Assembly (NCBI RefSeq): GCF_003332305.1
Contig: NZ_QOIO01000020.1
Coordinates: 1 to 64,000 of the forward strand
Length of the DNA stretch: 64,000 bases
DNA from: Microvirga aerophila
GTDB taxonomy: Bacteria > Pseudomonadota > Alphaproteobacteria > Rhizobiales > Beijerinckiaceae
Reading direction: 5' to 3'
Shown here: positions 9,841 through 31,525 of the stretch, in pieces
Position numbering within the stretch: position 1 is the first letter of the stretch
Layout of the letters: each line of letters opens with the position of its first letter
Notes under the pieces: model-generated
Told to the model about the DNA's origin: nothing
Databases searched by the model: none
The model's input: the letters and a program-made list of their open reading frames with translations, nothing else
Position numbers and translations under genes: made by a program

Positions 9841-10554
9841 ATGCCATTTCGCCAATTCAAAGCCTTAACCTTCGACGTGGTTGGCACGCTCATCGATTTC
9901 GAGAGAGGGATCATCAATCATATCCGTGCCGTGGCTGGTGATGCTGCACAGCATCTCAGCGATGATGTGATCCTGGAGGCTTATCGTTATTCACGGGCCG
10001 ACAAGTCGTCTGGCCTGTACCCGGACGACCTGGTTCGCGTCTACAAGGATATCGAAAGGAAGCTTCAGCTGCCGCATGTCCCTGGCGCAGCCGAAGGTCT
10101 GAAGGATTCGGTCAAGGATTGGCCAGCGTTTCCCGATTCCGTTGATGCTCTTAAGCGGTTGCGCAAGCACTTCCGCCTCGTTGCAATGACGAATGCCCGC
10201 AGGTGGGCGCTGGACCACATGGCAGCTACCTTAGAGCAGCCTTTTGACGAACGTGTTACCGTCGACGACGTGCGTTTCGAGAAGCCGGATCCGCAATTCT
10301 TTGCTTTCGCACGTGGGCGCCTCAGCACAAGCGGAATATTCTTCGAGGATATCCTGCACGTGGCTCAGAGCCAGTATCACGATATCGGCGTTGCAAAAAA
10401 GATTGGTTACACAGTAGCTTGGATCGAACGTCGTAAGGGCCTCAAGGGTTTCGGCGGAACGTTGGAAGTGCCTGAGCTAACCAAACCCGACTATCACTAT
10501 GCCACTCTGGGCGAGCTGGCCGATGCTGTCGAGGCAGAGCTGGGTGCCGGATAG
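9841..10554 (+). CDS. HAD-superfamily hydrolase, haloacid dehalogenase type II-like (first copy)
   Basis: A 237-residue protein whose N-terminus FKALTFDVVGTLID carries the HAD nucleophile Asp12. Motif II is MTNA near residue 120, motif III lysine lies in FEKPDPQFF near 150, and motif IV is HVAQSQYHDIGVAKKIGY. Annotation pipelines call this type haloacid dehalogenase type II, but most such proteins near amino-acid catabolic genes are hydrolases of unknown substrate. The ATG at 9841 starts the conserved strand; an upstream in-frame ATG at 9802 would add 13 residues without homology. It opens the island and has a paralogue at its far end (30782-31525). Confidence 0.85.
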   Translation: MPFRQFKALTFDVVGTLIDFERGIINHIRAVAGDAAQHLSDDVILEAYRYSRADKSSGLYPDDLVRVYKDIERKLQLPHVPGAAEGLKDSVKDWPAFPDSVDALKRLRKHFRLVAMTNARRWALDHMAATLEQPFDERVTVDDVRFEKPDPQFFAFARGRLSTSGIFFEDILHVAQSQYHDIGVAKKIGYTVAWIERRKGLKGFGGTLEVPELTKPDYHYATLGELADAVEAELGAG

Positions 10555-10608
10555 TGACGCGGAGCCAGGGTGCCGGTCGCCTTGGCCATTCTTTAGGGGA
10601 GGGCAGAG

Positions 10609-11886
10609 ATGCATGTGAATTCTCTGTGGGCTGCAACGGCAGAAGCAGAGCCGGTATTCCCATGCCTCAAAGGTCACGTTCAAGCTGATGTTGTCGTCAT
10701 CGGCGGCGGCTATACCGGCCTGTCCGCCGCCTATCATATTGCTGAATCAGGCCGGGCGCCGGTTTTGCTCGAGGCAAACCGGATAGGCTGGGGCGCCAGT
10801 GGTCGTAACGGTGGCGTCGTTTCACCCAAGTTTCGGATCTCCTTCCCCAGCATCGCTGCCTCACACGGCCGTGAGATCGCCCGGCGAATGTACGATCTCG
10901 CATACGAGTCCGTCGACTGCGTCGAGGAGCTTGTGGAGGCCCTGAGCATAAAGAGTGCGGGCTTCGGTCGTTACGGCCACATCGCTGCTGCTCACACGCC
11001 GCGCGCCCTCGCGAACCTCGCGGTAACGGGTGATTGGATCAAGGCGGAGTATGGCAAATCGGTAATGCTCGGACCTGAAGAGGTAAGGGAGGAAATCGGC
11101 ACAAAAGTCTTTTTTGGTGGTCTGCTCACCGCTGATGCCGGGGGGATCCATCCCTTGAATTATGCGCGTGGCCTTGCTCGCGGACTTCAGGCGAAAGGTG
11201 TTCCAGTCTATATCGAAACACCCGCCATAAAGGTTCGAAGCCGTGGCGCCGGTGTAATCGTTGAAACCCCGGAAGGCCAAGTCACTGCCCGTCAGGTGAT
11301 CCTTGCCACGAATGGCTATTCGGGTCTGACAGGTGCGACAAAGCCGATTTACCAGCGGCTTGTACCATTCCGGAGTGCAATCATAGCCACGGCACCGCTC
11401 TCAGCCAATGTTCGAGCTCAGATTCTTCCAGGTGGGCGCCTTTGCGGCGATACCAAACGAATGCTGCGCTGGTTCCGCATCGTGGACAAGCAGCTGATTT
11501 TTGGCGGTCGCGGCGCCTTCGGCCGGAATGACTCCCCATCTTCGTTCAAGAGTCTTCGCAGGGACATGACGGATCTCTTCCCTGTCTTGGAAGACACGCC
11601 TATTGTCCATGAATGGTCAGGCCTCGTGGCAATGACACTCGATGCCTTACCACATGTGGGGATGCTCGACGAACGGACTTATTTCGCCGCCGGCTACAAT
11701 GGGACCGGCGTCGCAATGGCAAGCCTGATGGGCCGGTATCTTGCTCGAAAGACGGCTGGCGAAGCAACGTCAGCAGCTCTCCTAGAGACGCTTCCCCTGC
11801 ACGCGATCCCGTTCCATGCCCTTCGATCACCTGGAGTTCGTCTGGCGGCAGGCTGGCAACAGTTCCTCGATATCTTAGGGCGTTGA
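10609..11886 (+). CDS. FAD-dependent amine/amino-acid oxidoreductase (DadA/PuuB type)
   Basis: A 425-residue flavoprotein of the DAO family. ADVVVIGGGYTGLSAAYHIA near residue 25 is the Rossmann dinucleotide motif, ANRIGWGASGRNGGVVSP is the second FAD segment typical of glycine/sarcosine oxidase and gamma-glutamylputrescine oxidase relatives, and YFAAGYNGTGVAMA near residue 360 is the C-terminal FAD-binding motif. Such enzymes oxidise the C-N bond of an amino acid or secondary amine to an imine and then a carbonyl. It follows the HAD gene by 54 bp with a GGGAGGG ribosome-binding site, so it probably shares its transcript. The exact substrate cannot be read from sequence. Confidence 0.85.
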   Translation: MHVNSLWAATAEAEPVFPCLKGHVQADVVVIGGGYTGLSAAYHIAESGRAPVLLEANRIGWGASGRNGGVVSPKFRISFPSIAASHGREIARRMYDLAYESVDCVEELVEALSIKSAGFGRYGHIAAAHTPRALANLAVTGDWIKAEYGKSVMLGPEEVREEIGTKVFFGGLLTADAGGIHPLNYARGLARGLQAKGVPVYIETPAIKVRSRGAGVIVETPEGQVTARQVILATNGYSGLTGATKPIYQRLVPFRSAIIATAPLSANVRAQILPGGRLCGDTKRMLRWFRIVDKQLIFGGRGAFGRNDSPSSFKSLRRDMTDLFPVLEDTPIVHEWSGLVAMTLDALPHVGMLDERTYFAAGYNGTGVAMASLMGRYLARKTAGEATSAALLETLPLHAIPFHALRSPGVRLAAGWQQFLDILGR

Positions 11887-12100
11887 CCAACTACAACCGC
11901 TCGTACTGGGCTCGTCCACAAGAACCTATAGAGTGACAATGAACGCTTTATCTGGTCTCCTTGCGCGCACCGATGCGCCTGAAGATCTGCGGATCGATAC
12001 TTTCGCTTCTTCAAGGAGACCTATCCTGCAGTTCCTGCCAGTCACCAATTTCCTCAGATGCGAGCCCACCGAAACCGCGATATCGTGAGAGGCTGATTGC

Positions 12101-13027
12101 ATGACACTTCTATACTTGGCGGATCCAAGCCGTGGCTCGCGTTGGAAGTCGATGTTTGCAACCGAGGCGCCGGATATTCCCTTCATGCTCCCTGAGGATG
12201 ACGTCGCTCCGCATGAGGTACGCTACCTTATGACATGGGAGGTTCCGCCAGATTTACAGAGCCGGTATCCTAACTTGGAAGTCATTTTCTCGGCAGGCGC
12301 GGGAACTGATCAGTTCACCCCCGAGCTTGTTCCAATCCATATTCCCGTCGTGCGGATGGTCGAGCCTGGCATGACCGCCGGCATGACCGAATACGTTAGC
12401 TTTGCCGTGCTGGCCCTGCATCGGGACATGTTGGATTATATCGCGAACCAGTCCAAGGCGGCATGGATCCCCCGTCTTATCATCCCGGCATCCCGTCGCC
12501 GCGTGGGGATTATGGGATTGGGTACCTTGGGCCTTTCAGTGATCGAGCAATTGAAGAAGTTTGGGTTTCAACTTTCAGGTTGGAACCGCTCAACACGTTC
12601 CGTCGAGGGCGTCACCAGCTACACCGGACGTGACGAACTCAACGCATTCTTAGCCTCCTGCGATATTTTGGTTTGCTTACTGCCACTGTCTAACGAGACA
12701 CGCGGCATTCTGAACAGCCGCCTCTTTGCTGCGCTCCCACATGGCGCAGGCCTCATCAATGTTGGACGCGGTGGGCACTTGGTGGAGGAGGACTTGTTGG
12801 CCGCTCTCGACAGCGGGCGAATTCGCAACGCGATCCTGGACGTTTTTGCGAGCGAACCATTGCCGGAGGATCATCCCTTCTGGAGGCATCCGCAGATACT
12901 TGTTACGCCGCACATTGCCAGCATGACGCAACCTGAGAGTGCCACTAAGGTGGTGGTTGCCAACATCCGCCGCCATCAAGCCGGCGAGCCACTGACCGAC
13001 GTCGTCGATCGTTCAGGGAAGTCTTGA
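12101..13027 (+). CDS. D-isomer-specific 2-hydroxyacid dehydrogenase (GhrA-like)
   Basis: A 308-residue NAD(P)-dependent dehydrogenase. The Rossmann motif is VGIMGLGTLGLSVIEQL near residue 137, and the catalytic triad is visible: Arg in INVGRGGHLVEEDLL, Glu in VFASEPLPEDHPFW and His in TPHIASMT. The short N-terminal domain and the WxHPQILVTPHIASMT end match glyoxylate/hydroxypyruvate reductase A. It would interconvert a 2-keto acid and its D-2-hydroxy acid, a plausible fate for a keto acid released by the FAD oxidase upstream. There is a 214-bp gap before it without a supported gene. Confidence 0.85.
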   Translation: MTLLYLADPSRGSRWKSMFATEAPDIPFMLPEDDVAPHEVRYLMTWEVPPDLQSRYPNLEVIFSAGAGTDQFTPELVPIHIPVVRMVEPGMTAGMTEYVSFAVLALHRDMLDYIANQSKAAWIPRLIIPASRRRVGIMGLGTLGLSVIEQLKKFGFQLSGWNRSTRSVEGVTSYTGRDELNAFLASCDILVCLLPLSNETRGILNSRLFAALPHGAGLINVGRGGHLVEEDLLAALDSGRIRNAILDVFASEPLPEDHPFWRHPQILVTPHIASMTQPESATKVVVANIRRHQAGEPLTDVVDRSGKS

Positions 13028-13265
13028 ACATCCCGCCCAGTGCGATTGGGGTCACGAGGCACCCCAAGGGTTATGATGAGAGCTATCTGTTGCGTTCGGA
13101 TCCAAGGCGCTCTCAATGCAAAGGTTTTTTGGGCTAAGCTGAAGCAACAGCAATTGGTTCAAGCTGTAACCCTTGAGTCGAGTTTTCAAAGCTGCAAGAA
13201 ATAGTCACTGTCGATGTAGTGCTGGCTGTGCTTGAGAGCCATCATCGTCGGATTGTGAGAGTGCC

Positions 13266-14168
13266 ATGAATCCGAATTACTTTGCTGCCTTTCGTGCAGT
13301 CATGCTTACGGGGACGGTTAGCGGCGCTGCAGAAATCCTCGGGCGCAGCCAACCCGCTGTCAGTCGCTTACTCGATAAACTGGAGTATGAACTCGGTATT
13401 TCCCTTTTCGAACGACGTAAGGGCTTGGTGACTCCGACGCCACAGGCGCACGAACTGCTTACTGAGATAGAACGTGCTTACGTCTCCCTAGAGTCCCTGC
13501 GGACCTTTGCTCTACAGCTTGCGAAGGGAGGAGGAAGTCACATCAGCCTAGCGGCGCTGCCTGCGCTGGGGCTCGACTTCATGCCACGTGTGCTGTCGCA
13601 ATTTCATGTGCACCGGCCAGAGACAAAAGTGTCTCTAAGCGTTCGGACGTCCTCGAAAATCGAAGAGTTCGCTGCGGCTCAACAAATCGACTTCGGCATA
13701 GCTGAGATGCCGTTTCGACGGTCGGGATTCAAAATCGAGGTTTTCAGTACCGCACCCTATGTTGCTGCGGTTCCTGCAAATCATCCGCTTGCTGATCGTT
13801 CCAGTATAAGTTTGGAAGACCTGTCTCGAACTCCCATGATACTGTATTCCTCATTTGCTCCTGCGCGCCATCTGCTGGATCAGGCCACTCAGTCTTCGGG
13901 AATCGAAACTGAAGCGATCTTCGAGACTAACCTGTCTGCTCCCGCGTATGCCATGGTGAAACATGGTCTTGGTATCGCCATATTGGATCCTTTCACGGCG
14001 ATCCTGCAACGATGCGATGAGGTTAAGCTTCTTCCATTCACTCCTACAATTCCATTTAAGGTAGCGCTGCTTCGACCGGAGACTCGGCCATTGACCTCGG
14101 CGGCGGAGGCCCTTTTTGCAACCATGGCGGATATGAAGACCATTGTCCTTGAGAAGCTGCCCAGTTGA
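13266..14168 (+). CDS. LysR-family transcriptional regulator
   Basis: A 300-residue protein with the N-terminal winged HTH typical of LysR (AAFRAVMLTGTVSGAAEILG, then QPAVSRLLDKLEYELG) and the periplasmic-binding-like effector domain (ISLAALPALGLDFMPRVLSQ onward). It lies inside the island in the same direction as its neighbours instead of divergent, so it is the best candidate regulator of the cluster. Its effector is probably the substrate or an intermediate. The 240 bp before it have no gene and should include its promoter. Confidence 0.88.
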   Translation: MNPNYFAAFRAVMLTGTVSGAAEILGRSQPAVSRLLDKLEYELGISLFERRKGLVTPTPQAHELLTEIERAYVSLESLRTFALQLAKGGGSHISLAALPALGLDFMPRVLSQFHVHRPETKVSLSVRTSSKIEEFAAAQQIDFGIAEMPFRRSGFKIEVFSTAPYVAAVPANHPLADRSSISLEDLSRTPMILYSSFAPARHLLDQATQSSGIETEAIFETNLSAPAYAMVKHGLGIAILDPFTAILQRCDEVKLLPFTPTIPFKVALLRPETRPLTSAAEALFATMADMKTIVLEKLPS

Positions 14169-14965: not shown

Positions 14966-15188
14966 TTGTTGCTGGCGTGCGATCGATCTGCCTAGGTGCC
15001 AGCACGTCAAGGCAATCTTTCCCAGAGTCACCTCCTCTGAAAAGGTTTGGTCATGTGATCCATCTCCAAAGAAAGTACTGGAACGTGGTTAAATGGAGCC
15101 AGATCGGTGGAAGATCGAAACATGGAGCTGGGGGAAGTAAGTTAAAGCTCAACCATCATGGCTGAGAACTAGATGTAAGGAATTGTCT

Positions 15189-17081
15189 GTGATTGTCTCT
15201 ACTCTCCCTCCACTAGTTGTTGTTGGTTTGGCCACTGTCGTTGCGGTGGGAACCCTGTCGACCCGGGCTCATGCCTGGAGGAGGGGGCGGGTGAATGCGC
15301 CCGTGCGCATTTCCGACCTGTTGAATGTACCTCGTCGTTATCTCGTCGACGTTCATGCCATTGTCGATCGCAGGCCCATTGCCGCACGCATGCATACCTT
15401 CGCGGCTGGCGGATTCCTGCTTACGGGTATCCTCGGGCTCCTAGCCGCGGCTGGTCTCTTGAACGGCCACGTCGCCGCTGTAGTGATCGCCTTATCGGGG
15501 ATGTCTGGTATCGCGGGGGCCACATTTGCTTTCGCCCGCCGCTCACCCCGAAAACCATCATACCTTTCGGGCGGCCTTTACTACAGTCTTCCTTGGCTCC
15601 TCGGCCTCGCCAACATCTTCTTTATGGGTGTCGGAATTTCTAGCGCTGCCGATCTAATGGTGGCGTGGAACACGCCGAGTGGAATAATCCTGCTGCTCAC
15701 AGGAATGGTCTCTTTGACGGGCTTGGCGTTGATTACAGGGAAAGGGCCTATGCGACACGCATTGGCTGGGACTCTTCACCTGGCGTGGCATCCTCGACCA
15801 GGACGTTTCAACGGGCAGTCCGCCGATACGGCCTTTGCACAAATTGATCTCGATGCACCAAAACTGGGCGCTAATCGCGTTGAAGACTTCGCCTGGAACG
15901 AGCTTCTCGGTTTTGACAGCTGCGTGCAGTGCGGTCGATGTGAAGCCGCCTGTCCTGCCTTCGCGGCGGGTCTTCCTCTCAATCCCAAGAAGTTTGTCAA
16001 CGACATCGCCGGCTCTAATGCTCCTGTTCAGTACGCCGGCTCCCCTCATCCCGGTCTGCCGGAGCATCGAGAGCAAGCCGGCCCAATCCTGATCGGGGAG
16101 GAGGGGGCCTCAATTGCGCCGGAGACGATTTGGGCATGTACCACGTGTCGGGCATGTGTTGACGCATGCCCGATGATGATCGAGCATCTTGATGGAATGA
16201 TAGCTCTAAGACGGTTCGAAACGCTTGAGCATGGAGCTACCCCGGGCAAAGCTGGGGATCTGTTTGATGCGTTGCGCGAAACCGATACGCAATCTGGCAA
16301 TCCTCTTCCCGCACGCCTTGATTTCGCGGCCGATCTCGCCCTCCCGCTGATGAAGGAACAGCATCCTGTCGAGGTTCTTCTCTGGATCGGGGAGGGCGGG
16401 TATGAGCTGCGCAATCAGCGGAGCCTGCGTGCGTTCATCAAGCTCCTGCGCATCGCCCAAATTGACTTCGCAGTGTTGGCAGAAGAACGGGATTGCGGCG
16501 ATGCGGCCCGCCGGCTTGGCGACGAGATCGAGTTCCTGCGCTTGGCGCAGGCAAATATAGCAACTTTGTCTCGCTATTCCTTTCGCTCGATTGTGACCCT
16601 TGATCCCCATGTCGCCCATAGCCTTACCCGCGACTATCCTTCCCTCGGAGGAAATTACCAGGTCTTTCATCATACGACTTTTCTGGATGGATTAGTCAGA
16701 GAAGGCCGCCTTTCTGTCGAAGGACAGTTGAACGGACGGGTGACTTATCACGATCCTTGTTATCTTGGACGCTATCTGAACGAAATTGATGCCCCGCGTG
16801 CTCTCATTGACAAGCTTGGCGTTGAGCGGGTCGAAATGGCCCGGCACGGACGTCAATCATTCTGCTGCGGTGGTGGTGGAGGTGGCCCGGTCACCGACAT
16901 CAAGGGGAAGCAGAGAATTCCTGACCTGCGCATGGAGCAGGCGCGCGAAACGGAAGCCGAGATAGTCGTAGTCGCTTGTCCGAACTGCACGACAATGCTG
17001 GAGGGGGTGACACAGCCTAGGCCGCTGGTTCGGGAGTTAAGCGAGATCCTCCTGGAAGCCGTAGAAAGACGCTCCTCATGA
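15189..17081 (+). CDS. DgcB-like membrane Fe-S oxidoreductase (DUF3483 + CCG domains)
   Basis: A 630-residue protein. The N-terminal 200 residues contain several membrane segments (the DUF3483 region). Two 4Fe-4S motifs follow, CVQCGRCEAACP near residue 245 and CTTCRACVDACP near 317. The C-terminus has the CCG heterodisulfide-reductase signatures: DPCYLGRYLNEI, FCCGGGGGGP near 558 and CPNCTTML near 598. DgcB-type proteins take electrons from an ETF or flavoprotein and pass them to the quinone pool. I choose the GTG at 15189 because AAGGA lies seven bases before it; an in-frame TTG at 15183 is only one base from that site. Its stop overlaps the etfA-like start by ATGA, so the four genes DgcB-EtfA-EtfB-DgcA are translationally coupled. 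Confidence 0.88.
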   Translation: MIVSTLPPLVVVGLATVVAVGTLSTRAHAWRRGRVNAPVRISDLLNVPRRYLVDVHAIVDRRPIAARMHTFAAGGFLLTGILGLLAAAGLLNGHVAAVVIALSGMSGIAGATFAFARRSPRKPSYLSGGLYYSLPWLLGLANIFFMGVGISSAADLMVAWNTPSGIILLLTGMVSLTGLALITGKGPMRHALAGTLHLAWHPRPGRFNGQSADTAFAQIDLDAPKLGANRVEDFAWNELLGFDSCVQCGRCEAACPAFAAGLPLNPKKFVNDIAGSNAPVQYAGSPHPGLPEHREQAGPILIGEEGASIAPETIWACTTCRACVDACPMMIEHLDGMIALRRFETLEHGATPGKAGDLFDALRETDTQSGNPLPARLDFAADLALPLMKEQHPVEVLLWIGEGGYELRNQRSLRAFIKLLRIAQIDFAVLAEERDCGDAARRLGDEIEFLRLAQANIATLSRYSFRSIVTLDPHVAHSLTRDYPSLGGNYQVFHHTTFLDGLVREGRLSVEGQLNGRVTYHDPCYLGRYLNEIDAPRALIDKLGVERVEMARHGRQSFCCGGGGGGPVTDIKGKQRIPDLRMEQARETEAEIVVVACPNCTTMLEGVTQPRPLVRELSEILLEAVERRSS

Positions 17082-18322: not shown

Positions 18323-19101
18323 GCGCGGATACTCTTGTTGTTCTCCTGTCAATTGGGCAAAACCCGGTGTCGGGACGCCCCCGTCGCGCTGAGCGGGACG
18401 CCCGCGCCCTTTCGATGGTGCTGGGGACAGGCAAGCCCGTGATTGGCCTCCATGCTGGGGCCCCGCATGATGCTTTGCATGAATATCTCGGCATGGGACT
18501 TCCCCAGCTTATCAATCTCAATGTTGGAGGCGGCGAGGATCCGACTCCGGCCATTGCGTCTGTCTTGTCACGCATAAAACCTGGCTTGGTGCTCACAGGA
18601 GCGCGCGCCGAGATCGGGGACGGAAGTGGTCTTCTCCCCTACGCAATCGCCAATCGGCTAGCGATGCCTGTCGTGCCTGAAATCGTTTCCGTAACATTCA
18701 GGACGGATTGGACAGAACTCCTGCAGGCTGTTCCTGGTGCGAGGCGACGTGTCCTTCAAGTCAGCGGGCCGGCCGTCGTGACCGTCGGCCATCATGGTCC
18801 ACCTTTGCGTCAAATTGCAAAAGGCCCAGCACGACGCGGCGTCATCAAGGAGGTGGCCATCCCCGAAAGCCTGCCTCTCGCACCAAACCTTATGCTGCCG
18901 CCCCTTGCAGAGAGGCCAGCGCGTAAACGGCCGAAACGAATTGGACCCACCTCGGAAAGTCAGTCGGCTCAGAATCGAATGACGCTGACGGACCCAGATG
19001 CGGAGGCCGCGGCGCACGCGATCCTCAGCTTCCTGCGCAGCGAGCGCTTTGTCCTCGATCCGGCACGCGAGGCCAGCCAAACTAAGGAACTTGCTTCATG
19101 A
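18319..19101 (+). CDS. Electron transfer flavoprotein beta subunit
   Basis: A 260-residue EtfB-type protein. It opens with VVLLSIGQNPVSGRPRRAER, has the AMP/nucleotide-site region (GLVLTGARAEIGDGSGLLPYA near residue 95) and the conserved RRVLQVSGPAVVTV segment (about 138). It forms the ETF heterodimer with the alpha subunit encoded directly upstream. The C-terminal 60 residues are basic and less conserved. ATGA overlaps on both sides show that it is expressed with DgcB and DgcA. Confidence 0.85.
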   Translation: MSADTLVVLLSIGQNPVSGRPRRAERDARALSMVLGTGKPVIGLHAGAPHDALHEYLGMGLPQLINLNVGGGEDPTPAIASVLSRIKPGLVLTGARAEIGDGSGLLPYAIANRLAMPVVPEIVSVTFRTDWTELLQAVPGARRRVLQVSGPAVVTVGHHGPPLRQIAKGPARRGVIKEVAIPESLPLAPNLMLPPLAERPARKRPKRIGPTSESQSAQNRMTLTDPDAEAAAHAILSFLRSERFVLDPAREASQTKELAS

Positions 19102-22792: not shown

Positions 22793-24391
22793 ATGTCCGA
22801 TGAAACAGACAAAGCCAAACAAAATGGCCATGCAGAAACGGGAGCCGGCTTGCCGCATGTAAGCCGCCGCATGTTCAATATGGGCCTTTTGTCGAGCAGC
22901 ATGATTGCAGCAAGTGGGCTGCCGATCATCGGCTCGGCATTAGCTGCGCCGACGCGTGGTGGTACGGTGCGTCTTGCCGCGAACCAGCAGAGCACAAACG
23001 ACACGTTCGACTCTGCCAAGTATGTAAAAGGCGACGATTACATCCGTGGCACAAGCGTCTTCAGCTATTTGACCCGGCTTGATGAGCAGGGCAATCCTCA
23101 GCCTGAGGTTGCTCGTTCCTGGGAGCCGAACGAGAACGCGACCCGGTGGGCTTTCAAGATCCGCCCAGGTATCATGTTTAGTGACGGCACTAAGCTGAGT
23201 ATAGATGATATTGCATTCTCTATCCTGCGTCACAAGGAAGAGAAGGTAGCCTCAAGTGCGAAGCAACTTGTGGGCAACATCAAGTCCGTTGCTGCCGACG
23301 GTCCCGACACAATGGTGATTGAGTTGGAGACTCCGGACGTTGATCTGCCTGTCCTTGTAGGTATCTTCCAGTTCGCTATCGTGAAGAAGGGTACATACGA
23401 TTTTGCGAAGCCGATCGGGACTGGCCCCTTCGTGGTGAAAGAGTTTCAGCCAGGCATACGTACAGTCTTGGTGCGGAACCCCACCTACTGGAAGGAAGGC
23501 CGTCCTTACATCGACCAGTTCGAAATATTCTTCATCCCGGATGCTGCGGCACGCGCGAACGCGCTGCTCTCTGGGGATGTTGACATGATCATCGAGCTGC
23601 GTGGCAGCGGCATCGAAGAGGTTGCGAAGTCCAGTAACGCAAGCGTCTTTGTGACGCCGAGCACACGCTACACCGCAATCCAGGCGGCAGTTGATCGCGC
23701 TCCATCCAACAATCAAGATTTGAATCTGGCCTTGGCCTACCTCGTTGATCGTAAGCGTGTCCTGGATACGGTGCTACGTGGCTACGGGACCATTGCCAAC
23801 GATCATCCAATCGGCCCGAAGAGCCCATATTTCAACTCAGCGCTCCCGCAGCGAACACTCGATACCGACAAGGCAAAGTTCCACCTCCAGAAGTCTGGCG
23901 TCGGCCAAGCGAAAATCGAAGTGTCGGTAAGCGACGGTGTACTTTACAGTGTCGATATCGGGCAGTTGATGCAGCGGGAGGCCTCGCGAGCCGGCCTCAA
24001 CCTTGAGCTCCGGCGTGAGCCGGCAGACAGCTATTGGAGCGCTGTCGCAGGAAAGCGTCCATACTTCGCGACGAATTTCCACCCGCGTCCAACCTACAAC
24101 ATGCTGCTTAACCTTGCATGGCGCAAAGGAGCGGTGTGGAATTTCTCGCACTATGAGAATGATAACCTCGAGAAGCTTATCATAGACTCGCGTGCAACGC
24201 TGGATCCGGCGAAACGCAAGCAGCAATATGATGAGATCCAGGCGATCATCTATAACTCAGGAGCAATGGTTCTTCCCTGCTTCCTTAACTATGTCGACGG
24301 CGTTTCGAACAAGATCAAGGGCCTGACGCCTATTCCTGTTGGCAGTCTCGGCGGCTTCAACTTCACGGATCGCATCTGGCTCGAAGGCTGA
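22793..24391 (+). CDS. ABC transporter substrate-binding protein (peptide/opine class, SBP_bac_5)
   Basis: A 532-residue lipid-free binding protein. A twin-arginine export signal is visible: SRRMFNMGLLSSSMIAASG, with the two arginines near residues 24-25, a hydrophobic core and ALAAP as likely cleavage site near 44. The mature part follows the DppA/OppA-type family (GGTVRLAANQQSTNDTFDSA; LDEQGNPQPEVARSWEPNE; GTGPFVVKEFQPG). The Tat signal instead of a Sec signal is common for this clade in Rhizobiales. It supplies substrate to the permeases just downstream. The GGCAGGAG ribosome-binding site is good. Confidence 0.9.
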   Translation: MSDETDKAKQNGHAETGAGLPHVSRRMFNMGLLSSSMIAASGLPIIGSALAAPTRGGTVRLAANQQSTNDTFDSAKYVKGDDYIRGTSVFSYLTRLDEQGNPQPEVARSWEPNENATRWAFKIRPGIMFSDGTKLSIDDIAFSILRHKEEKVASSAKQLVGNIKSVAADGPDTMVIELETPDVDLPVLVGIFQFAIVKKGTYDFAKPIGTGPFVVKEFQPGIRTVLVRNPTYWKEGRPYIDQFEIFFIPDAAARANALLSGDVDMIIELRGSGIEEVAKSSNASVFVTPSTRYTAIQAAVDRAPSNNQDLNLALAYLVDRKRVLDTVLRGYGTIANDHPIGPKSPYFNSALPQRTLDTDKAKFHLQKSGVGQAKIEVSVSDGVLYSVDIGQLMQREASRAGLNLELRREPADSYWSAVAGKRPYFATNFHPRPTYNMLLNLAWRKGAVWNFSHYENDNLEKLIIDSRATLDPAKRKQQYDEIQAIIYNSGAMVLPCFLNYVDGVSNKIKGLTPIPVGSLGGFNFTDRIWLEG

Positions 24392-24439: not shown

Positions 24440-25402
24440 TTGCTTTCGTTCATCCTGAAGCGGGTTCTTCAAACTATCGTGTTGCTACTCGCCGTCTCTA
24501 TTCTTGTATTCATCGGGTGCGAAATCCTGCCTGGTGATGTTGCTCAAGTTGCGCTCGGACAGTTCGCTACAGAGGATAATGTCCGAGCGCTTCGCCTGGA
24601 GCTGGGCCTCGACCGCCCTGCCTATGAGCGGTACCTCAGTTGGCTGGTCGGCATCCTGCAAGGCGACTGGGGGCAGTCGATCACGACGAAGACGCCAGTA
24701 GCGACAATGCTTTCGGAGCGGCTTTGGAACACAGGTCTCCTCGCTCTCGTAACGACCGTCGTCGCCGTGCCTCTTGCGCTTGTCCTCGGTCTTTTGATGG
24801 CCGTTGGGGCTGGACGCACCTGGGACCGCAGCGCCTCGATCGTTGTGCTCGGCCTCTCGGCTACGCCGGAATTCCTGATAGGCAGTCTTGCCGTTCTCCT
24901 GTTCGCTGTGCAGCTCCGCTGGCTGCCGGCAGTCGCCTACCTTAGCCCTGGATCCGGCTTTTCTCAGACTGCCCGAGCTCTGTTTTTGCCGGTCCTCACC
25001 CTCGTCATTGTTGTGACGGCGCAGATTGCACGTATGACGCGAGCAATTATCGCTAACTTACTCACCCAACCATTCGTGGAAATGGCGGTTCTGAAGGGTG
25101 TTCCATCCCGAAGAATTGTAGGGGTGCACGCACTTATCAATGCCGTCGGCCCACTTGCAAACATAGTCGCCCTCAACATAGCGTACTTGGTCAGCGGGGT
25201 CGTTGTGGTCGAGACCATTTTCGCTTATCCCGGCCTAGCTGGTCTTATGATCAATGCGGTTCAGGCCCGTGATCTTCCAGTCGTTCAGGCCTGCGCTTTA
25301 ATCTTCTGCGCTACTTACGTGATCATGATCCTCGTCGCTGATATTCTAGCCCATCTTTACGATCCGCGTTCAAACGCTCAGGCAGCCATGGAGAAACTGT
25401 AA
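24440..25402 (+). CDS. ABC transporter permease (DppB type)
   Basis: A 320-residue six-helix permease of the binding-protein-dependent peptide class: MLSFILKRVLQTIVLLLAVS at the N-terminus, the characteristic GDVAQVALGQFATEDNVRAL loop, LRLELGLDRPAYERYLSWL, and the EAA-type loop near RRIVGVHALINAVGPLANIV. A TTG start is supported by AGGGGGG six bases upstream; no ATG is available in a suitable place. It forms the channel with the next gene. Confidence 0.88.
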   Translation: MLSFILKRVLQTIVLLLAVSILVFIGCEILPGDVAQVALGQFATEDNVRALRLELGLDRPAYERYLSWLVGILQGDWGQSITTKTPVATMLSERLWNTGLLALVTTVVAVPLALVLGLLMAVGAGRTWDRSASIVVLGLSATPEFLIGSLAVLLFAVQLRWLPAVAYLSPGSGFSQTARALFLPVLTLVIVVTAQIARMTRAIIANLLTQPFVEMAVLKGVPSRRIVGVHALINAVGPLANIVALNIAYLVSGVVVVETIFAYPGLAGLMINAVQARDLPVVQACALIFCATYVIMILVADILAHLYDPRSNAQAAMEKL

Positions 25403-25403
25403 C

Positions 25404-26240
25404 ATGCTCAATGTTGCTGCAGTCCAGCGCCGGGGGATCAGGCTTACTCTCTGGTTCAGCATTCTCATCATTGGGATCTGTGCACTTGTGGCTATCTTCG
25501 GCCCTTGGATTGTGCCGCATGATCCAACAGAGTTCGTCACAGACGAGCCTTTCGGGAGGCCGCAGGTCGGGATTTGGCTTGGCTCCGACTATCTAGGGCG
25601 GGATCTGCTCTCACGTCTTATAGACGGTACACGCACGACTCTGGTCATGGCCCTTGTGGCCACTGTCCTGGCTCACCTCCTAGGCGACTGCTTAGGGCTT
25701 TTAGCCGCTCTACGGGGAGGATGGGTTGATGCCGTGATCAGCCGGATAGCGGACCTGATCCTGTCACTTCCCAAAATTATCGTGGGCCTTGTTATCGTGG
25801 CAGCTCTCGGTTCCTCCGTCTTAGTCATCGTCATGTTGGCTGCTGTTGTCTACGCAGCCGGGGTGTTCCGCATCGCGAGAGCGCTTGGGAGCGACTTGGT
25901 CGGAATGGACTTCATCAAAGTCGCGAAATCCCGCGGAGAAGGACCTGGCTGGATATTGTTCTCAGAGATCTTTCCACACGTAGCTCAGCCATTAGCCGCC
26001 GACTTCGCTATCCGCATGAGCTTCGCTATTCTCTTTATGAGCAGTCTTAGCTTCCTAGGCTTGGGCGTACAGCCGCCGCTCGCCGATTGGGGCGGTCTGG
26101 TACGTGAGAATTTGGGAGGGTTGGCCGGGGGCTCGCTTGCTCCGATATTTCCAGCCATGGCAATCGCAGTAACGTCGATTGCTCTCAATCTCCTGGTTGA
26201 CAACATCGGGGAGCAACAGCTTCAGAAGAAGGGTGCCTGA
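25404..26240 (+). CDS. ABC transporter permease (DppC type)
   Basis: A 278-residue permease: first helix from LTLWFSILIIGICALVAIFG, then the periplasmic loop IVPHDPTEFVTDEPFGRP and LGSDYLGRDLLSRLIDGTRT, the family signature of DppC/OppC-type permeases. The EAA loop is DFIKVAKSRGEGPGWILF. The start lies one base after the stop of the first permease, and its TGA overlaps the ATPase start, so all are in one operon. Confidence 0.9.
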   Translation: MLNVAAVQRRGIRLTLWFSILIIGICALVAIFGPWIVPHDPTEFVTDEPFGRPQVGIWLGSDYLGRDLLSRLIDGTRTTLVMALVATVLAHLLGDCLGLLAALRGGWVDAVISRIADLILSLPKIIVGLVIVAALGSSVLVIVMLAAVVYAAGVFRIARALGSDLVGMDFIKVAKSRGEGPGWILFSEIFPHVAQPLAADFAIRMSFAILFMSSLSFLGLGVQPPLADWGGLVRENLGGLAGGSLAPIFPAMAIAVTSIALNLLVDNIGEQQLQKKGA

Positions 26241-27976
26241 TGACCAGTTCCGTCCTCAATATCCAAGATTTGGTTGTCGAGCCAATGGCCGGTGGGCGTC
26301 CTGTTGTCGACGGAATTTCGATCTCGGTCGAGCGAGGCGAAGTATTAGCTTTGATCGGCGCGTCGGGATCTGGCAAAACCACGCTCGCATTGGCAGCACT
26401 TGGTCACCTGCGACCTGGGCTGAGGGTCCAGAATGGCAGCGTCACGCTTGACGGCACTGAAATGCTCCGCGCCGCGCCGCGGATGTTGAGGTCTCTCAGA
26501 GGTCGGGCCATCGCCTATATCGCTCAAAGTGCCGCGGCGGCGTTTAACCCGCGCATGCGCCTTGATGCACAAATCACCGAAGTATCTCGGGTGCATAGGA
26601 GCCGTTCGCACAAAGAAGCCATTCAAACGGCTCACCGTCTTTACGGTCGCCTCGATCTGCCAAACCCTGACTTGGTCGGCTCACGTTTCCCACATCAAGT
26701 TTCAGGAGGGCAGCTTCAGCGTTTCATGATCGCGATGGGTCTTCAGGAATCGCCTCTCCTTCTTGTCTGCGATGAACCAACCAGCGCACTCGATGTGACA
26801 ACTCAGGTAGAGGTGCTTCGGGCGCTGAAACAAGGAATCGCTGACAACAACACAGCCGCCCTGTTCGTCAGTCATGATCTCGCCGTCGTCTCTCAAATCG
26901 CCACGAAGATAGCAGTACTACGCTCAGGCCGAATGATTGAATTCGGGACAGCTCGTGACATTCTGGAGTCACCAAAGGATGCTTATACGAAGGAACTCGT
27001 CGCGGCGAGCAAGCACATGACGATCAGCCCGACGAGCCGGGGAGGCTCTGTTGCGCCAGCACCCGGCCCGGAGAAAGCACCGCTCTTGGCAGTTCAAAAG
27101 GTGGTGGCGGGCTTCGGCAAGGTCACGGATGGCAGCCCTTCTGTCACAACGCTGAACGACATCAGTCTCAATCTCCGTAAGGGTGAGATAGTAGCGGTCA
27201 TTGGTGAATCTGGCTCCGGTAAGAGCACACTTGCGCGTGTTATCGCTGGCCTGCATCCTGCTGCACGGGGCGAGATCTATATGGATGGCAAGAGACTTGC
27301 TGGTTCTGTTGAGAACCGGACAGTTTCTGAGCGCCGACGCATTCAGCTCGTCTTTCAGTCCGCAGATACGGCATTGAACCAGAAACACAGCGTAGGCCGT
27401 ATCCTTGGGCGGGTCTTGAAATTCTTCCATGGAACGTCGGGTAGCGCGCGAGAGACTCGTGTAGCGGAATTGCTGAAGATGGTGCAGCTTCCGCCGGAAT
27501 ATGCCAATCGCCTGCCGAGCCAACTCTCTGGTGGCGAAAAGCAGCGTGTAAATCTTGCTCGGGCCCTCGCCGCGGAGCCGGAGGTTCTGATCTGCGACGA
27601 AATCACTTCTGCGCTCGATACGATCGTAGCAGAGTCTATCATTCGGTTGGTGGAGAGCCTGAGTAAAGAACTTGGGCTCGGGATTATCTTCATCAGTCAT
27701 GATCTCGCCACGGTGTCTGCCCTTGCCCAAGAGGTCACGGTTCTACGTCATGGTCGGATTGTGGAGAGTGGCTCAACACAGGCTGTTCTCTCCGCACCGC
27801 AAAATCCATATACGCAACTCCTCGTTAGCTCGGTTCCGCAGGCGCGTCCTGGATGGCTCGAGGAGGCTGTCGCCACACGCAACCGGCTTCGGCATGCGCT
27901 CGAAGCCGACCGTAGTTCGCAGGCTCTCGCCTCTGACGGCGTCGGTAACGCGCTGGCTATCACGACGGGACCCTAG
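26240..27976 (+). CDS. ABC transporter ATP-binding protein, fused double-domain (DppD-DppF type)
   Basis: A 578-residue protein with two nucleotide-binding domains. First: Walker A GASGSGKTT near residue 34, signature VSGGQLQRFMIAMGL near 153, Walker B LLLVCDEPTSALD near 174. Second: Walker A GESGSGKST near 325, signature LSGGEKQRVNLARAL near 430, Walker B VLICDEITSALD. It powers the two permeases. The fused arrangement replaces the separate DppD and DppF subunits. The start overlaps the preceding stop by one base. Confidence 0.92.
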   Translation: MTSSVLNIQDLVVEPMAGGRPVVDGISISVERGEVLALIGASGSGKTTLALAALGHLRPGLRVQNGSVTLDGTEMLRAAPRMLRSLRGRAIAYIAQSAAAAFNPRMRLDAQITEVSRVHRSRSHKEAIQTAHRLYGRLDLPNPDLVGSRFPHQVSGGQLQRFMIAMGLQESPLLLVCDEPTSALDVTTQVEVLRALKQGIADNNTAALFVSHDLAVVSQIATKIAVLRSGRMIEFGTARDILESPKDAYTKELVAASKHMTISPTSRGGSVAPAPGPEKAPLLAVQKVVAGFGKVTDGSPSVTTLNDISLNLRKGEIVAVIGESGSGKSTLARVIAGLHPAARGEIYMDGKRLAGSVENRTVSERRRIQLVFQSADTALNQKHSVGRILGRVLKFFHGTSGSARETRVAELLKMVQLPPEYANRLPSQLSGGEKQRVNLARALAAEPEVLICDEITSALDTIVAESIIRLVESLSKELGLGIIFISHDLATVSALAQEVTVLRHGRIVESGSTQAVLSAPQNPYTQLLVSSVPQARPGWLEEAVATRNRLRHALEADRSSQALASDGVGNALAITTGP

Positions 27977-28029
27977 GGCGGCTGCCAACGTCCGGTCTCC
28001 CGTATGGGTCCGGTGTGGAAGAGATGATC

Positions 28030-29589
28030 ATGCGAGCACCACTGTTGAGTCTTGAGCAACGTTCTTACGACGCCATTGTCATTGGCGGGGGCGCAGCAGG
28101 TGCGAGTTCTGCTCAGCATCTAGCATCTCAAGGCTATAGTACTCTTCTCGTCGAGGGTGGAGATTTTGCAAGCGGAACCAGCAGCCGCTCAAGTCGTCTG
28201 CTCTATTGCGGTCTTGCGTACTTTTCTCCGGATTACGAACTTTGGCGCTTTGCCTATCGGCCGCGAGATCTCCTGACACGCGTCAGGATGGCCAAGCTTG
28301 CAATGGAATGCCGCACGCAGCTTATGAAAACCATGCCAGAGCGGCTGAACAAACATACCTTCTTTTTCCCTGTTTTCCGCGACAGAATGTATCCGGGCTG
28401 GAAGGTCGACCTCGGATACCGAGCACTCGGCTTGTTCGGCTCCCGCGACGCGCCGCTCAACTACCGCCGGCTGCCCGCAAAAGCCGCGGCTCGGCAGTTC
28501 GGATTAGTCCAACTGATGGATCAGAGCCGTTTGGACAGTGTCGGCGTTTTCACGGAGTATCAATATAATTGGGCGGAGCGGATCTGTCTGGACACCGTTC
28601 TCGACGCCGAGCAATGTGGCGCGACCGTCCGTAACTATACCAAGGCGGTAAAACTGGAGCCGTTACCGGGTCGCTCCTGGCTGGTCACACTCGAAGACAT
28701 GCGGGAGCCGGGATCCACCGTACAGGTTCGGGCGTCTATCCTGATCAATGCGGCGGGCCCTTGGGCAGACCAAGTCAACGGTCAGGCAGTGCAGAACCCC
28801 CGTAAGCGCCTTGTAGGCATCAAGGGCGTTAACGTCATGGTGAAACTGCCCGACGAGTGTCATGGATTAGGAATGGAGACGATCAGTAGCATCGGGCAAC
28901 CATTCTACTGCATGCCTTGGGGTAAGTACCATTTCTTCGGCCCGACCGAAGCTGTCTTCGACGGTAATCCCGAGGACGTCCGCGTTCTGCCCGAAGAAGT
29001 TGAGTTCATCCTCAACGAGGCGAACAAATTGTTTCCGAGCCTGGCGCTGAGCCGAGAGGATGTCGTTTACACTTGGTCTGGTGTGCGGCCACGGACGGCA
29101 AGCACAGGGCATGAGGGGGTCAAGTCGCTTACCATTCATGACATGGAAGGCGATGGTATGCCAAATGCACTGACACTCACTGGAACTCCCATCATGCTGC
29201 ACCGCCACGCCGGACGAGCAATCGCGAGGAAGGTCAAGCAGATGCTTCGCCCATCACAAAAGGAAAAGCCTCTATCTTATGAGGCGAAGCTCTTCCCAGA
29301 GAATCAAAATTCACCTCCCATCGATTATGATTTTCCAGGGGTGAAGGTTGCCGATCTGCGTCATGCAGCCGCTCACGAGCATGTTGAGACGCTTGTTGAT
29401 CTGCTATTCCGCCGGGTGCCGCTTGGTTGGAACATTGGCATGGGACTCTCCTCAGCACGACACGCAGCAGAGGCTGTGGCTGATATTCTCGATTGGGACG
29501 AGGAGCGAGTAACGGCAGAGGTTTCGAACTATACCCATTTCGTACAGGAGAACTTCAACCCTTCTTGGCCAGCGCCGGTTCAGGGTTGA
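28030..29589 (+). CDS. GlpD-like FAD-dependent dehydrogenase
   Basis: About 519 residues related to glycerol-3-phosphate dehydrogenase GlpD: YDAIVIGGGAAGASSAQHLA (FAD Rossmann), GGDFASGTSSRSSRLLYCGL (the GTSSRSS-HGG-like segment, here CGL for GGL), AGPWADQVNG near 250 and a C-terminal GlpD-like helical domain. The usual HGGLRYL is changed to YCGLAYF, so a substrate other than glycerol-3-phosphate is likely, perhaps another hydroxy acid or amine. I place the start at the ATG at 28030, six bases after GGAAGAG; a GTG at 28015 without ribosome-binding site would add five residues. A truncated relative of GlpD lies at 31661-31828. Confidence 0.8.
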   Translation: MRAPLLSLEQRSYDAIVIGGGAAGASSAQHLASQGYSTLLVEGGDFASGTSSRSSRLLYCGLAYFSPDYELWRFAYRPRDLLTRVRMAKLAMECRTQLMKTMPERLNKHTFFFPVFRDRMYPGWKVDLGYRALGLFGSRDAPLNYRRLPAKAAARQFGLVQLMDQSRLDSVGVFTEYQYNWAERICLDTVLDAEQCGATVRNYTKAVKLEPLPGRSWLVTLEDMREPGSTVQVRASILINAAGPWADQVNGQAVQNPRKRLVGIKGVNVMVKLPDECHGLGMETISSIGQPFYCMPWGKYHFFGPTEAVFDGNPEDVRVLPEEVEFILNEANKLFPSLALSREDVVYTWSGVRPRTASTGHEGVKSLTIHDMEGDGMPNALTLTGTPIMLHRHAGRAIARKVKQMLRPSQKEKPLSYEAKLFPENQNSPPIDYDFPGVKVADLRHAAAHEHVETLVDLLFRRVPLGWNIGMGLSSARHAAEAVADILDWDEERVTAEVSNYTHFVQENFNPSWPAPVQG

Positions 29590-29592
29590 TCC

Positions 29593-30537
29593 ATGATGCG
29601 CTATATTGACCCTGAAACCGTTCACAGTGTTCTTGATTGGACGAGCACAATCGCTGCGCTCCGTGAAGCCCATCGCGGTGAGGTCCCAAAAACCGGGCGT
29701 GTCACGCTCGAGGAGACACGGACGGAGGGACAGCCGAACATACTTCTCGCGATTCCAACTTGGCAACCGGGTAAGGCTATCGGCGTTAAGCTGGTTACCT
29801 CATTTCCTGGAAACGTGGAGCATCGCGGACTTCCAACAGTCAATGCAATCTATATTGTTTTCCATCCGATTACAGGCGCGCCTCAGGCGATCATCGACGG
29901 CGAGGCGCTGATCTTCCGCAAAACGGCAGCCAACTCTGCCCTTGGAGCGAGCTATCTCGCACGAGATGACGTTGAGACGCTTCTCATGGTCGGTGCCGGA
30001 GCATTAGCACCTTATCTCATTCGGGCTCACATGAGTGTTCGTCCATCCATCCGGCGTGTACGCATCTGGAACCGCACCTTTCAGCGAGCGGAGGCGCTCT
30101 CAGCGCAGTTGCAGGCGGACGGGATTGATGCCGAGGCGACTGTGGATCTCGAGGGTGCCATCGGTGCCGCAGACATCATATCAAGCGCGACAATGGCAGA
30201 AGAGCCCTTGGTCAAAGGTGAGCTTGTTAAGCCAGGCACTCACGTGGACCTTGTGGGATCGTTTACCCCATCCATGCGGGAGGGAAATGACGAGATGTTG
30301 AAGCGGGCTTTGCTATTCGTCGATACATACGGCTGCCTCGAGCGCACAGGGGAGTTCATAGATCCTATGGGACGTGGAGTAATCTCGAAGAATGATATCC
30401 AGGCGGATTTGTTCGCGCTCTGTCATGGACACCACACTGGCCGTGTGTCCGCCAGCGAGATTACCATGTACAAGAATGCGGGTGCCGGCCATCTTGACCT
30501 TTTCGTTGCTCATCACCTGATGCAGCGTCTCGGCTAA
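29593..30537 (+). CDS. Ornithine cyclodeaminase/mu-crystallin family protein
   Basis: A 314-residue NAD(P)-binding protein: GVKLVTSFPGNVEHRGLPTV, FRKTAANSALGASYLA, and the Rossmann TLLMVGAGALAPYLIRAHMS near residue 130. Members are true ornithine cyclodeaminases, or imine reductases acting on delta1-pyrroline-2-carboxylate and delta1-piperideine-2-carboxylate, or alanine-type dehydrogenases. In this cluster an imine reductase role for a cyclic imino acid fits best, but I cannot separate these by eye. It starts three bases after the preceding stop (two possible ATGs, 29593 and 29596) and is co-transcribed with the GlpD-like gene. Confidence 0.85.
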   Translation: MMRYIDPETVHSVLDWTSTIAALREAHRGEVPKTGRVTLEETRTEGQPNILLAIPTWQPGKAIGVKLVTSFPGNVEHRGLPTVNAIYIVFHPITGAPQAIIDGEALIFRKTAANSALGASYLARDDVETLLMVGAGALAPYLIRAHMSVRPSIRRVRIWNRTFQRAEALSAQLQADGIDAEATVDLEGAIGAADIISSATMAEEPLVKGELVKPGTHVDLVGSFTPSMREGNDEMLKRALLFVDTYGCLERTGEFIDPMGRGVISKNDIQADLFALCHGHHTGRVSASEITMYKNAGAGHLDLFVAHHLMQRLG

Positions 30538-30781
30538 CTAGTATGGGATACACTGGAAGCAGATCATATCTCGGGAACCAGCCAGTCAAGGAGGCGCAAG
30601 TCCTGCGCACCTAGGTAGCTGGTTGAGTCAATGAAGTGCTATTCAGAGCTGGCGGGATATGAGGGTTCGCTCATCGTCATGTTAGGCGCCACCAGCTTGG
30701 CGAAGGGCTTCACTGATGATGAGACGATCAACTGTACGCACCTGCTATGGCAGCTGCGTGCTTAATATCAGGAGCCTCCAA

Positions 30782-31525
30782 ATGCGTCTGACGGATTTTA
30801 AAGTCCTTACCTTCGACTGCTATGGCACACTGATCGATTGGGAAAGTGGGATGGTTGAAGCGCTTACGCCACTTACCAGTAAGGTGAGGCGCCCATTGAC
30901 ACGCAATGAAATTCTGGAGGCTCATGCGCGCCATGAAGCTTCTCAGCAACTCCAGACCCCAACAAAGAAATATCGGGAGCTCCTTGCCATCGTCTACAAG
31001 CGTCTCGCCGAGGAGTGGGGAGTTTCGGTATCGCACGAAGACTGCGCCGCTTATGGTCAGTCCGTCCGTGACTGGCCCGCTTTCAGCGATTCGGCTGACG
31101 TGCTCCAGTACCTCAAAAAATTTTATAAGCTCGTGATCCTGTCGAACGTTGACAATGAGACGTTCAGCTATAGCAACAAGCGCCTTCAGATTGAGTTTGA
31201 CGCAGTTTACACGGCGGAGGATATCGGCGCCTATAAGCCGAGTTTAGGTAACTTTGTGTATATGCTCGATAAGCTTAGTGGAATGGGAGCCGGCAAGAGC
31301 GATATTCTCCACACCGCTGAAAGCATGTTCCACGATCATAAACCAGCGAATAGTATAGGGCTTGCGTCCTGCTGGATCTACCGCCGCCATAAGGATGCGG
31401 GCTTTGGTGCAACGATGAACCCCGGCGAGATGCCAAAGTTTGATTTCAAATTTACAAGTATGGGCGAGCTGGCCAAGGCCCATCAGGAGCAACTTGGGAC
31501 CAACACAAGATCTGTTCCTGATTAA
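30782..31525 (+). CDS. HAD-superfamily hydrolase, haloacid dehalogenase type II-like (second copy)
   Basis: A 247-residue HAD protein with FKVLTFDCYGTLIDWESG (nucleophile Asp12), LSNVDN (motif II), YKPSLGNFVYML (motif III lysine) and HTAESMFHDHKPANSIGL (motif IV). It ends IYRRHKDAGFGATMNPGEMP and a helical tail, the same domain order as the HAD protein at 9841-10554. The ATG at 30782 has an AGGAG six bases before it and begins the first strand; the upstream in-frame ATG at 30716 is rejected. It closes the catabolic island. The 240 bp before it show no gene. Confidence 0.85.
   Translation: MRLTDFKVLTFDCYGTLIDWESGMVEALTPLTSKVRRPLTRNEILEAHARHEASQQLQTPTKKYRELLAIVYKRLAEEWGVSVSHEDCAAYGQSVRDWPAFSDSADVLQYLKKFYKLVILSNVDNETFSYSNKRLQIEFDAVYTAEDIGAYKPSLGNFVYMLDKLSGMGAGKSDILHTAESMFHDHKPANSIGLASCWIYRRHKDAGFGATMNPGEMPKFDFKFTSMGELAKAHQEQLGTNTRSVPD

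Follow-up and report, generated by a model that had tools for sequence, protein, structure and literature searches.

Which compound is taken up and degraded by a 16-gene catabolic island in Microvirga aerophila? The island lies at positions 9,841 to 31,525 of the window, that is, the whole stretch of 64,000 nucleotides analysed here (positions 1 to 64,000 of contig NZ_QOIO01000020.1, assembly GCF_003332305.1), in a genome of 6.0 Mb. It comprises, among others, two hydrolases of the HAD family (HADa and HADb), a DgcB-EtfA-EtfB-DgcA set, an ABC importer, a GlpD-like flavoprotein, an ornithine cyclodeaminase (OCD)-family protein and an enolase-superfamily enzyme (Table 1). The original prediction, made from the letters of the sequence, had listed these genes and proposed a pathway for an N-methylated amino or imino acid, possibly N-methylproline or N-methylpipecolate. 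Its gene content was borne out, as all open reading frames (ORFs) are present and their families were confirmed against NCBIfam and Pfam; a DAO-family flavoprotein and a GhrA-like dehydrogenase lie in the same range and had gone unmentioned. Of the pathway, an imported N-alkyl amino or imino acid, handled by DgcAB with electron transfer flavoprotein (ETF) and by an imine reductase, remains a good description, whereas the HAD proteins favour an azetidine over N-methylproline or N-methylpipecolate. The HAD proteins, the genes that accompany the importer and an extension of the island in M. aerilata appear to shift the substrate towards an azetidine compound, and we see a nearly even chance, slightly on the low side, that the island serves the uptake and breakdown of an amino acid with an N-substituted azetidine-2-carboxylate ring.

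The two HAD proteins and an azetidine ring

HADb matches PDB entries 3smv, 8ywo and 9v14 (E = 2e-89, 55% identity), whose records bear two names, L-azetidine-2-carboxylate hydrolase and (S)-2-haloacid dehalogenase, and in a tree from which rows of <200 residues or with a stop were left out it forms one group with 3smv (support 98/92), a group that also holds 8hp5. For HADa, the best PDB match is 3smv (E = 4e-43), with 37% identity to the known hydrolase; classical dehalogenases and epoxide hydrolases match it at E = 1e-11 or worse, and its score against the NCBIfam model for haloacid dehalogenase type II (TIGR01428) is below the cut-off (115 vs. 125.4 bits). Among characterised enzymes, the comparisons thus place both HADa and HADb nearest to L-azetidine-2-carboxylate hydrolase, a kinship that argues for an azetidine ring rather than for N-methylproline or N-methylpipecolate. 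A search at E <= 1e-8 returned HADa and HADb as the only such HADs in their own genome, and a literature search returned no paper for 8hp5 or for 2poz, a structure related to the enolase-superfamily enzyme (Table 1).

An Asp at position +2 after the HAD nucleophile is a feature of phosphatases. In the alignment, the nucleophile motif reads FDCYGT in HADb and 3smv and FDVVGT in HADa, with the nucleophile Asp kept and the +2 Asp absent; both proteins therefore seem built for carbon-heteroatom hydrolysis and not for phosphate, and a phosphatase role was rejected on the missing +2 Asp. The motif cannot separate an azetidine hydrolase from a dehalogenase, because dehalogenases share it.

According to PMC8016842, ring opening of azetidine-2-carboxylate by the Pseudomonas enzyme gives 2-hydroxy-4-aminobutyrate, with transamination as the following step, and an Aspergillus relative (44.5% identical to the Pseudomonas enzyme) is needed for the use of azetidine-2-carboxylate via gamma-aminobutyrate (GABA) catabolism. 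The island resembles these assimilation systems (the hydrolase of Pseudomonas sp. A2C, AzhA of Aspergillus) in that HADb belongs to the same clade and that aminotransferase and SSADH genes occur in M. aerilata and beside some HADb relatives. It differs in adding an importer, DgcAB-ETF, an enolase-superfamily enzyme and the GlpD-like and OCD proteins, as though a larger molecule had to release the azetidine first.

Candidate genes for the later steps are found in related loci. Upstream from HADa, M. aerilata carries SSADH, then a tartrate dehydrogenase family gene on the opposite strand and a class III aminotransferase; its SSADH passes TIGR01780 and its tartrate dehydrogenase passes TIGR02089. 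The same three genes surround a HADb relative on a Leisingera plasmid, a B. ambifaria plasmid has SSADH, class III aminotransferase and GABA permease genes near two HADb relatives, and R. leguminosarum has SSADH and tartrate dehydrogenase in a HADa-DAO cluster with an importer of another type. Aminotransferase, SSADH and tartrate dehydrogenase would together take 4-amino-2-hydroxybutyrate through malate semialdehyde and malate to pyruvate.

Gene company of the importer and conservation of the island

A search with the substrate-binding protein (SBP) found matches in 31 of the 398 sampled genomes of the phylum, own genome included (E <= 1e-95). We read 20 of the 33 SBP places outside the own genome, in 19 genomes; two of the best 22 were skipped without a reason of content, and the other 11 were outside the set. 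These importer loci were selected on the SBP alone, several come from one genus, and the draws are not independent. Some partner queries came from loci that had already been inspected, those of Acidovorax and R. leguminosarum, and matches had to reach 35% identity to the closest query (the Acidovorax-type HAD was counted with and without this floor, with the same result). A HAD was present in all 20 importer loci, DAO in 19, SSADH in 15, GhrA in 11, tartrate/D-malate dehydrogenase in 9, class III aminotransferase in 9, and DgcA in 2. Around 14 other HADa/HADb-related HADs, used for comparison and anchored on HADs rather than on the importer (3 fall beyond the part of the tree that holds the azetidine hydrolase; some lie on short contigs), we counted DAO 0, SSADH 1, aminotransferase 1 and GhrA 1. 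Since loci selected by the SBP carry HAD, DAO, SSADH and GhrA, the importer appears to be tied to the HAD/malate-semialdehyde route. A GNAT acetyltransferase occurs in 17/20 importer clusters; by analogy with the N-acetylation of azetidine-2-carboxylate, a known fungal detoxification (PMC8016842), it is possibly an azetidine-2-carboxylate N-acetyltransferase.

The Acidovorax cluster contains opine-oxidase-like subunits (DAO, Pyr_redox_2 with Fer2_BFD, and Fer2_4), a composition found in opine oxidases and some D-amino acid dehydrogenases, and in P. largidicola relatives of these subunits come immediately after the importer ATPase. Binding-protein importers, flavin oxidases and OCD-family enzymes are typical of opine catabolism loci and are all present in the island; unlike such loci, the window has no opine-oxidase heteromer, and the proposed HAD/D-malate route stands in its place. 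As for metallophore importers, the SBP scored below the Nik/Cnt cut-offs (TIGR02294 NikA, 92 of 393 bits; CntA, 48 of 800 bits) and does not classify as one; the importer ATPase passes some Nik/Cnt cut-offs, but with two domains fused its score adds up two stretches. Two further ideas were not supported. Of the importer loci read, Neorhizobium and Acidovorax alone have an annotated TonB siderophore receptor, which speaks against it as a regular companion, and a methyltransferase beside the Acidovorax cluster, considered as a nicotianamine-synthase-like enzyme, had no such Pfam match.

Conserved synteny, proposed as a check in the original prediction, was found. M. aerilata keeps 13 of the 16 island genes in order at 73-92% identity (type A), so that the arrangement is more than chance; DAO (87%) and HADa (94%) lie just upstream, on another locus record, with a cupin gene in between. 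A GlpD orthologue (E <= 1e-120) is present in 3 of 48 Microvirga genomes, own included, with M. aerilata and M. makkahensis among the matches, and the distribution of the island is therefore patchy. At E <= 1e-80, the GlpD-like protein has matches in 19 of the 297 genomes of the order, own included. Within ~10 kb of the 19 GlpD-like places outside the own genome (18 genomes, several of one genus, so that draws are not independent), we found DgcA-like genes at 13, HAD at 7, DAO at 6, enolase-superfamily genes (MLE) at 5, OCD at 4 and P5CR-like genes at 2. Because DgcA-like genes are near 13/19 GlpD-like places, the two enzymes probably act together. Type B loci (Bosea lathyri, B. vaviloviae, M. 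makkahensis) have the order importer-GlpD-OCD-DgcA(47-49%)-MLE, and type C loci (Mesorhizobium, Fulvimarina, Aurantimonas, Ochrobactrum and others) the order MLE-LysR-GlpD-polar amino acid importer-DgcA-DAO-HADa, or near rearrangements. All four other genomes with the closest GlpD-like genes encode a HAD of the HADa/HADb-related clades (E <= 1e-20): within the island in one, ~7 kb past the SBP in one, and elsewhere in the genome in two. Searching named genomes with the enolase-superfamily protein brought up 37 loci, 13/37 with GlpD-like and 14/37 with DgcA-like genes (the 18 examined as 'without GlpD' were picked on that criterion and so do not test the link independently); by itself this protein says little about the substrate.

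Amine-oxidising enzymes, the proposed route and its competitors

The DgcAB-ETF gene set is complete (OYE/FAD DgcA, DUF3483-FeS-CCG DgcB, EtfA, EtfB), and the DgcA-like protein is 47% identical to HpbA, an N-methyl-L-proline demethylase, and 62% identical to an Azospirillum protein from a glycine-betaine type cluster. The island shares the DgcB-EtfA-EtfB-DgcA set with the dgc, hpb and stc loci for DgcAB-ETF demethylation, and differs from them in having HADs and in having no Rieske demethylase, sarcosine oxidase or ProVWX (the search for sarcosine oxidase was confined to the island). The reported absence of a Rieske-type demethylase thus held within the island, and one Paracoccus Rieske query had no match in the own genome, for which a positive control is absent. 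A type C module lies in partial ORFs beside an HpbA/Rieske betaine cluster in a Brucella cytisi record; as the module is broken and the Rieske gene is part of the adjoining cluster, this locus was not counted as evidence for a Rieske association.

In the Paracoccus hpb cluster, a GlpD-like gene (42%) stands beside a P5CR-like gene, ~5 kb from HpbA and close to a proline-betaine importer. The cluster is like the island in combining a GlpD-like enzyme, an imine reductase and a DgcA-type demethylase, and unlike it in that HpbD, Rieske and FdhA are absent from the island, whose enolase-superfamily enzyme is of another subgroup. HADs and GlpD-like enzymes had been regarded as undescribed in such pathways; for the GlpD-like enzyme, the Paracoccus cluster and the frequent DgcA-like neighbours show that the island is not unique, and for the HADs the azetidine hydrolase is the nearest characterised enzyme. 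The OCD protein passes the cut-off for Delta1-pyrroline/piperideine-2-carboxylate reductase (PRK06141; 331.3 vs. 322 bits), in agreement with its predicted role as a cyclic imine reductase, and the best model for DAO is the L-pipecolate oxidase AmaA, at 189 of 600 bits, far under the cut-off.

Several of these similarities would also suit a pathway for N-methylated cyclic imino acids (N-methylproline, N-methylpipecolate or hydroxylated forms), in which DgcA would demethylate, the GlpD-like enzyme would oxidise the (D-)imino acid to a cyclic imine and OCD would reduce this to the L-form, with the HADs as detoxifying extras. We consider this explanation unlikely, though a serious competitor: the identity to HpbA, the gene neighbourhood in Paracoccus, the reductase score of OCD and, despite its low score, the AmaA model for DAO all speak for it, but it leaves HAD, GhrA, aminotransferase, SSADH and D-malate dehydrogenase without a role, the importer is of the Opp/Nik type and not ProVWX, and the Rieske query found nothing. 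Four queries for formaldehyde, S-formylglutathione or sarcosine genes found a neighbour at only 1 of the 17 type A, B and C loci (Fgh, in Neorhizobium), which is a mild argument against removal of an N-methyl group.

Residue alignments, restricted to GlpD, MLE and DgcA sequences of a minimum length that contain no stop, narrow the roles of two further enzymes. E. coli GlpD binds glycerol-3-phosphate through H50, R54, R317 and K354. The K354 equivalent is P in the window protein and never K in 37 sequences, the R317 equivalent is invariant, and H50 and R54, which most relatives keep, are Y and A in the window protein. With the K354 equivalent lost, the main ground for rejecting a glycerol-3-phosphate enzyme, and the R317 equivalent kept, the substrate is probably not glycerol-3-phosphate but carboxylate-bearing. 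The enolase-superfamily enzyme has the mandelate-racemase-type residues D204/E230/E256, D279-H306 and E331, invariant in 20 sequences, which we take to be its metal and acid/base residues; it may act as a racemase or a dehydratase. The suggestion that it is a hydroxyproline-betaine epimerase was not upheld: besides this residue set, it had no HpbD match at E <= 1e-8, and the Paracoccus relative is 22% identical.

Gene content, homologies and co-localisation were observed directly, and every reaction of the azetidine route is inferred. The importer would take up an N-substituted azetidine-2-carboxylate; DgcA would dealkylate the ring nitrogen, with electrons passing via EtfAB and DgcB to quinone; and the GlpD-like and OCD enzymes would oxidise and reduce amine/imine bonds in the side arm, with free azetidine-2-carboxylate as the outcome. 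The HADs would then attack carbon 2, forming an aspartyl ester, and ring opening would yield 4-amino-2-hydroxybutyrate, the amine of which DAO (the class III aminotransferase in M. aerilata) would convert to malate semialdehyde. SSADH could oxidise the semialdehyde to malate and tartrate/D-malate dehydrogenase the malate to pyruvate; GhrA and the enolase-superfamily enzyme may handle the 2-hydroxy acid.

Nicotianamine and the mugineic acids are the best-known natural N-substituted azetidine-2-carboxylates; grasses secrete mugineic acids for iron, and some soil microbes degrade them fast. That nicotianamine, deoxymugineic acid or mugineic acid is the substrate, and the island a phytosiderophore/nicotianamine catabolism locus, is a tentative proposal that we would hold to be doubtful rather than remote. 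The opine-type importer would bring in the compound, GlpD-like and OCD enzymes (an opine-oxidase-like enzyme in some beta-proteobacterial relatives) would split the secondary amine, DgcAB-ETF would remove the arm that the azetidine nitrogen carries, and ring opening would fall to the HADs; both halves of a mugineic-type molecule would give 4-amino-2-hydroxybutyrate, then malate. PMC7786132 (2021) describes the genes of phytosiderophore metabolism, and the taxa that carry it out, as unknown at that time and gives a few P. fluorescens genes, proposed from expression data only. Titles and abstract starts in our literature search, which left most subscription journals outside its coverage, described no bacterial genes for nicotianamine or mugineic acid catabolism. 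The island names a concrete, conserved gene set in which ring-opening enzymes, importer and end route fit a phytosiderophore-type compound. If this substrate were correct, the breadth of the SBP family would suggest that many bacteria act as a sink for plant metal chelators; a simpler azetidine would extend azetidine use from a detoxifying hydrolase to a full uptake-and-catabolism locus.

A number of observations weigh against the azetidine reading. The PDB chain nearest to HADb is 8hp5 (64%), filed as (S)-2-haloacid dehalogenase, and HADb passes the TIGR01428 cut-off (159.4 vs. 125.4 bits); HADa is outside the azetidine hydrolase group, in a separate well-supported clade, at only the 37% identity given above, and its relatives also occur beside spermidine/putrescine-type importers and a GMC oxidoreductase. 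The HADs of all 20 importer loci are of a third type, 58-94% identical to the Acidovorax protein, which is itself 30% identical to the known hydrolase, and a HADa-like HAD is present in 5/20. HADb was not found in the genome taken as M. aerilata. Aminotransferase, SSADH and malate dehydrogenase are all missing from the island in the window; the closest matches in the own genome lie on other contigs (aminotransferase 42%, SSADH 55%), and aminotransferase and SSADH are also absent from the third HADb context opened, a Roseomonas plasmid. Six independently found HADa orthologue loci (two on short contigs) have DgcA/GlpD in 0/6 and DAO in 3/6; together with the DgcA count of 2/20 in importer loci and with DgcA-GlpD pairs that exist without HAD (DgcA 13 and HAD 7 of the 19 GlpD-like loci), this indicates that the two halves of the island are separable. 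The importer of type C loci is one for small amino acids, and the hosts of these loci are, as we take them to be, marine bacteria, which makes them a poor fit to mugineic acids.

Such separability would be expected if the island were two unrelated modules, one for the use of free azetidine-2-carboxylate (HAD, DAO, GhrA, importer) and one a DgcAB-ETF/MLE/GlpD/OCD amine pathway. We judge this improbable, as the importer sits between DgcA-MLE and GlpD-OCD in both the window and M. aerilata, and HADa-DAO recurs with DgcA-GlpD in type C loci, where the importer is another one. Very improbable is that the HADs act on a 2-haloacid or epoxysuccinate while the malate-semialdehyde end serves, e.g., 4-amino-3-hydroxybutyrate (norcarnitine type, with DgcA demethylating), since, although HADb has the dehalogenase affinities noted above, HAD type II also includes cis-epoxysuccinate hydrolases and tartrate dehydrogenase would suit tartrate, dehalogenases and epoxide hydrolases match HADa far more weakly than the azetidine enzyme does.

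Layout of the island and its surroundings

Table 1. Genes of the catabolic island, with positions in the window.
Feature	Position	Strand	Remark
HADa, HAD type II hydrolase	9841..10554	+	own clade near azetidine-2-carboxylate hydrolase; 94% in M. aerilata
DAO-family flavoprotein, AmaA/PuuB-like	10609..11886	+	recurs beside HADa
GhrA-like D-2-hydroxyacid dehydrogenase	12101..13027	+	importer clusters of Acidovorax and B. cepacia hold relatives (52-53%)
LysR regulator	13266..14168	+	47-61% relatives adjoin GlpD-like genes in most type C loci
DgcB-like membrane Fe-S protein	15183..17081	+	DUF3483, 4Fe-4S, CCG
EtfA	17078..18322	+	NCBIfam, Pfam
EtfB	18319..19101	+	family confirmed by NCBIfam/Pfam
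DgcA-like FMN/FAD amine dehydrogenase	19098..21128	+	single match in own genome at E <= 1e-40
Enolase-superfamily enzyme, mandelate racemase subgroup	21172..22335	+	best PDB match 2poz
Family-5 (Opp/Nik-type) substrate-binding protein, SBP	22793..24391	+	
Importer permease 1	24440..25402	+	
Importer permease 2	25404..26240	+	
Importer double ATPase, fused	26240..27976	+	
GlpD-like flavoprotein without equivalent of E. coli GlpD K354	28015..29589	+	
OCD-family imine reductase	29593..30537	+	
HADb, in L-azetidine-2-carboxylate hydrolase clade	30716..31525	+	likely start 30782

The predicted overlaps among the DgcB-like, EtfA, EtfB and DgcA-like genes were confirmed as three 4-base overlaps between consecutive genes. 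The listed ORF of HADa opens at a TTG at 9802; we place its start at the ATG given in Table 1, which suits the homologues, as these align from residue 3. For HADb, the inner ATG is the probable start because matches begin at residue 22-23.

Past HADb, a short reading on the minus strand (~31660-31830) looks by eye like the N-terminal FAD-binding start of GlpD and is probably a relic, and a P5CR-like fragment (PRK06476, 98/258 model positions matched; 32197-32697, minus strand) also has the appearance of a relic. The stretch 36950-41275 holds a tRNA-Ser and, ~2.4 kb further on, a gene for a 599-aa DUF6538 protein, which we take to be of integrase type. The GC content is 0.52-0.62 in the first 48 kb of the window (mostly <0.60) and 0.61-0.65 beyond. 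The catabolic island may lie within an acquired region. Elsewhere in the window, a 1415-aa protein with RTX-type calcium-binding repeats (19 stretches) is encoded at 43315-47562 on the plus strand, and a gamma-glutamyltransferase-like sequence, recognised by eye, is split over two overlapping ORFs at 54790-56545 on the minus strand.

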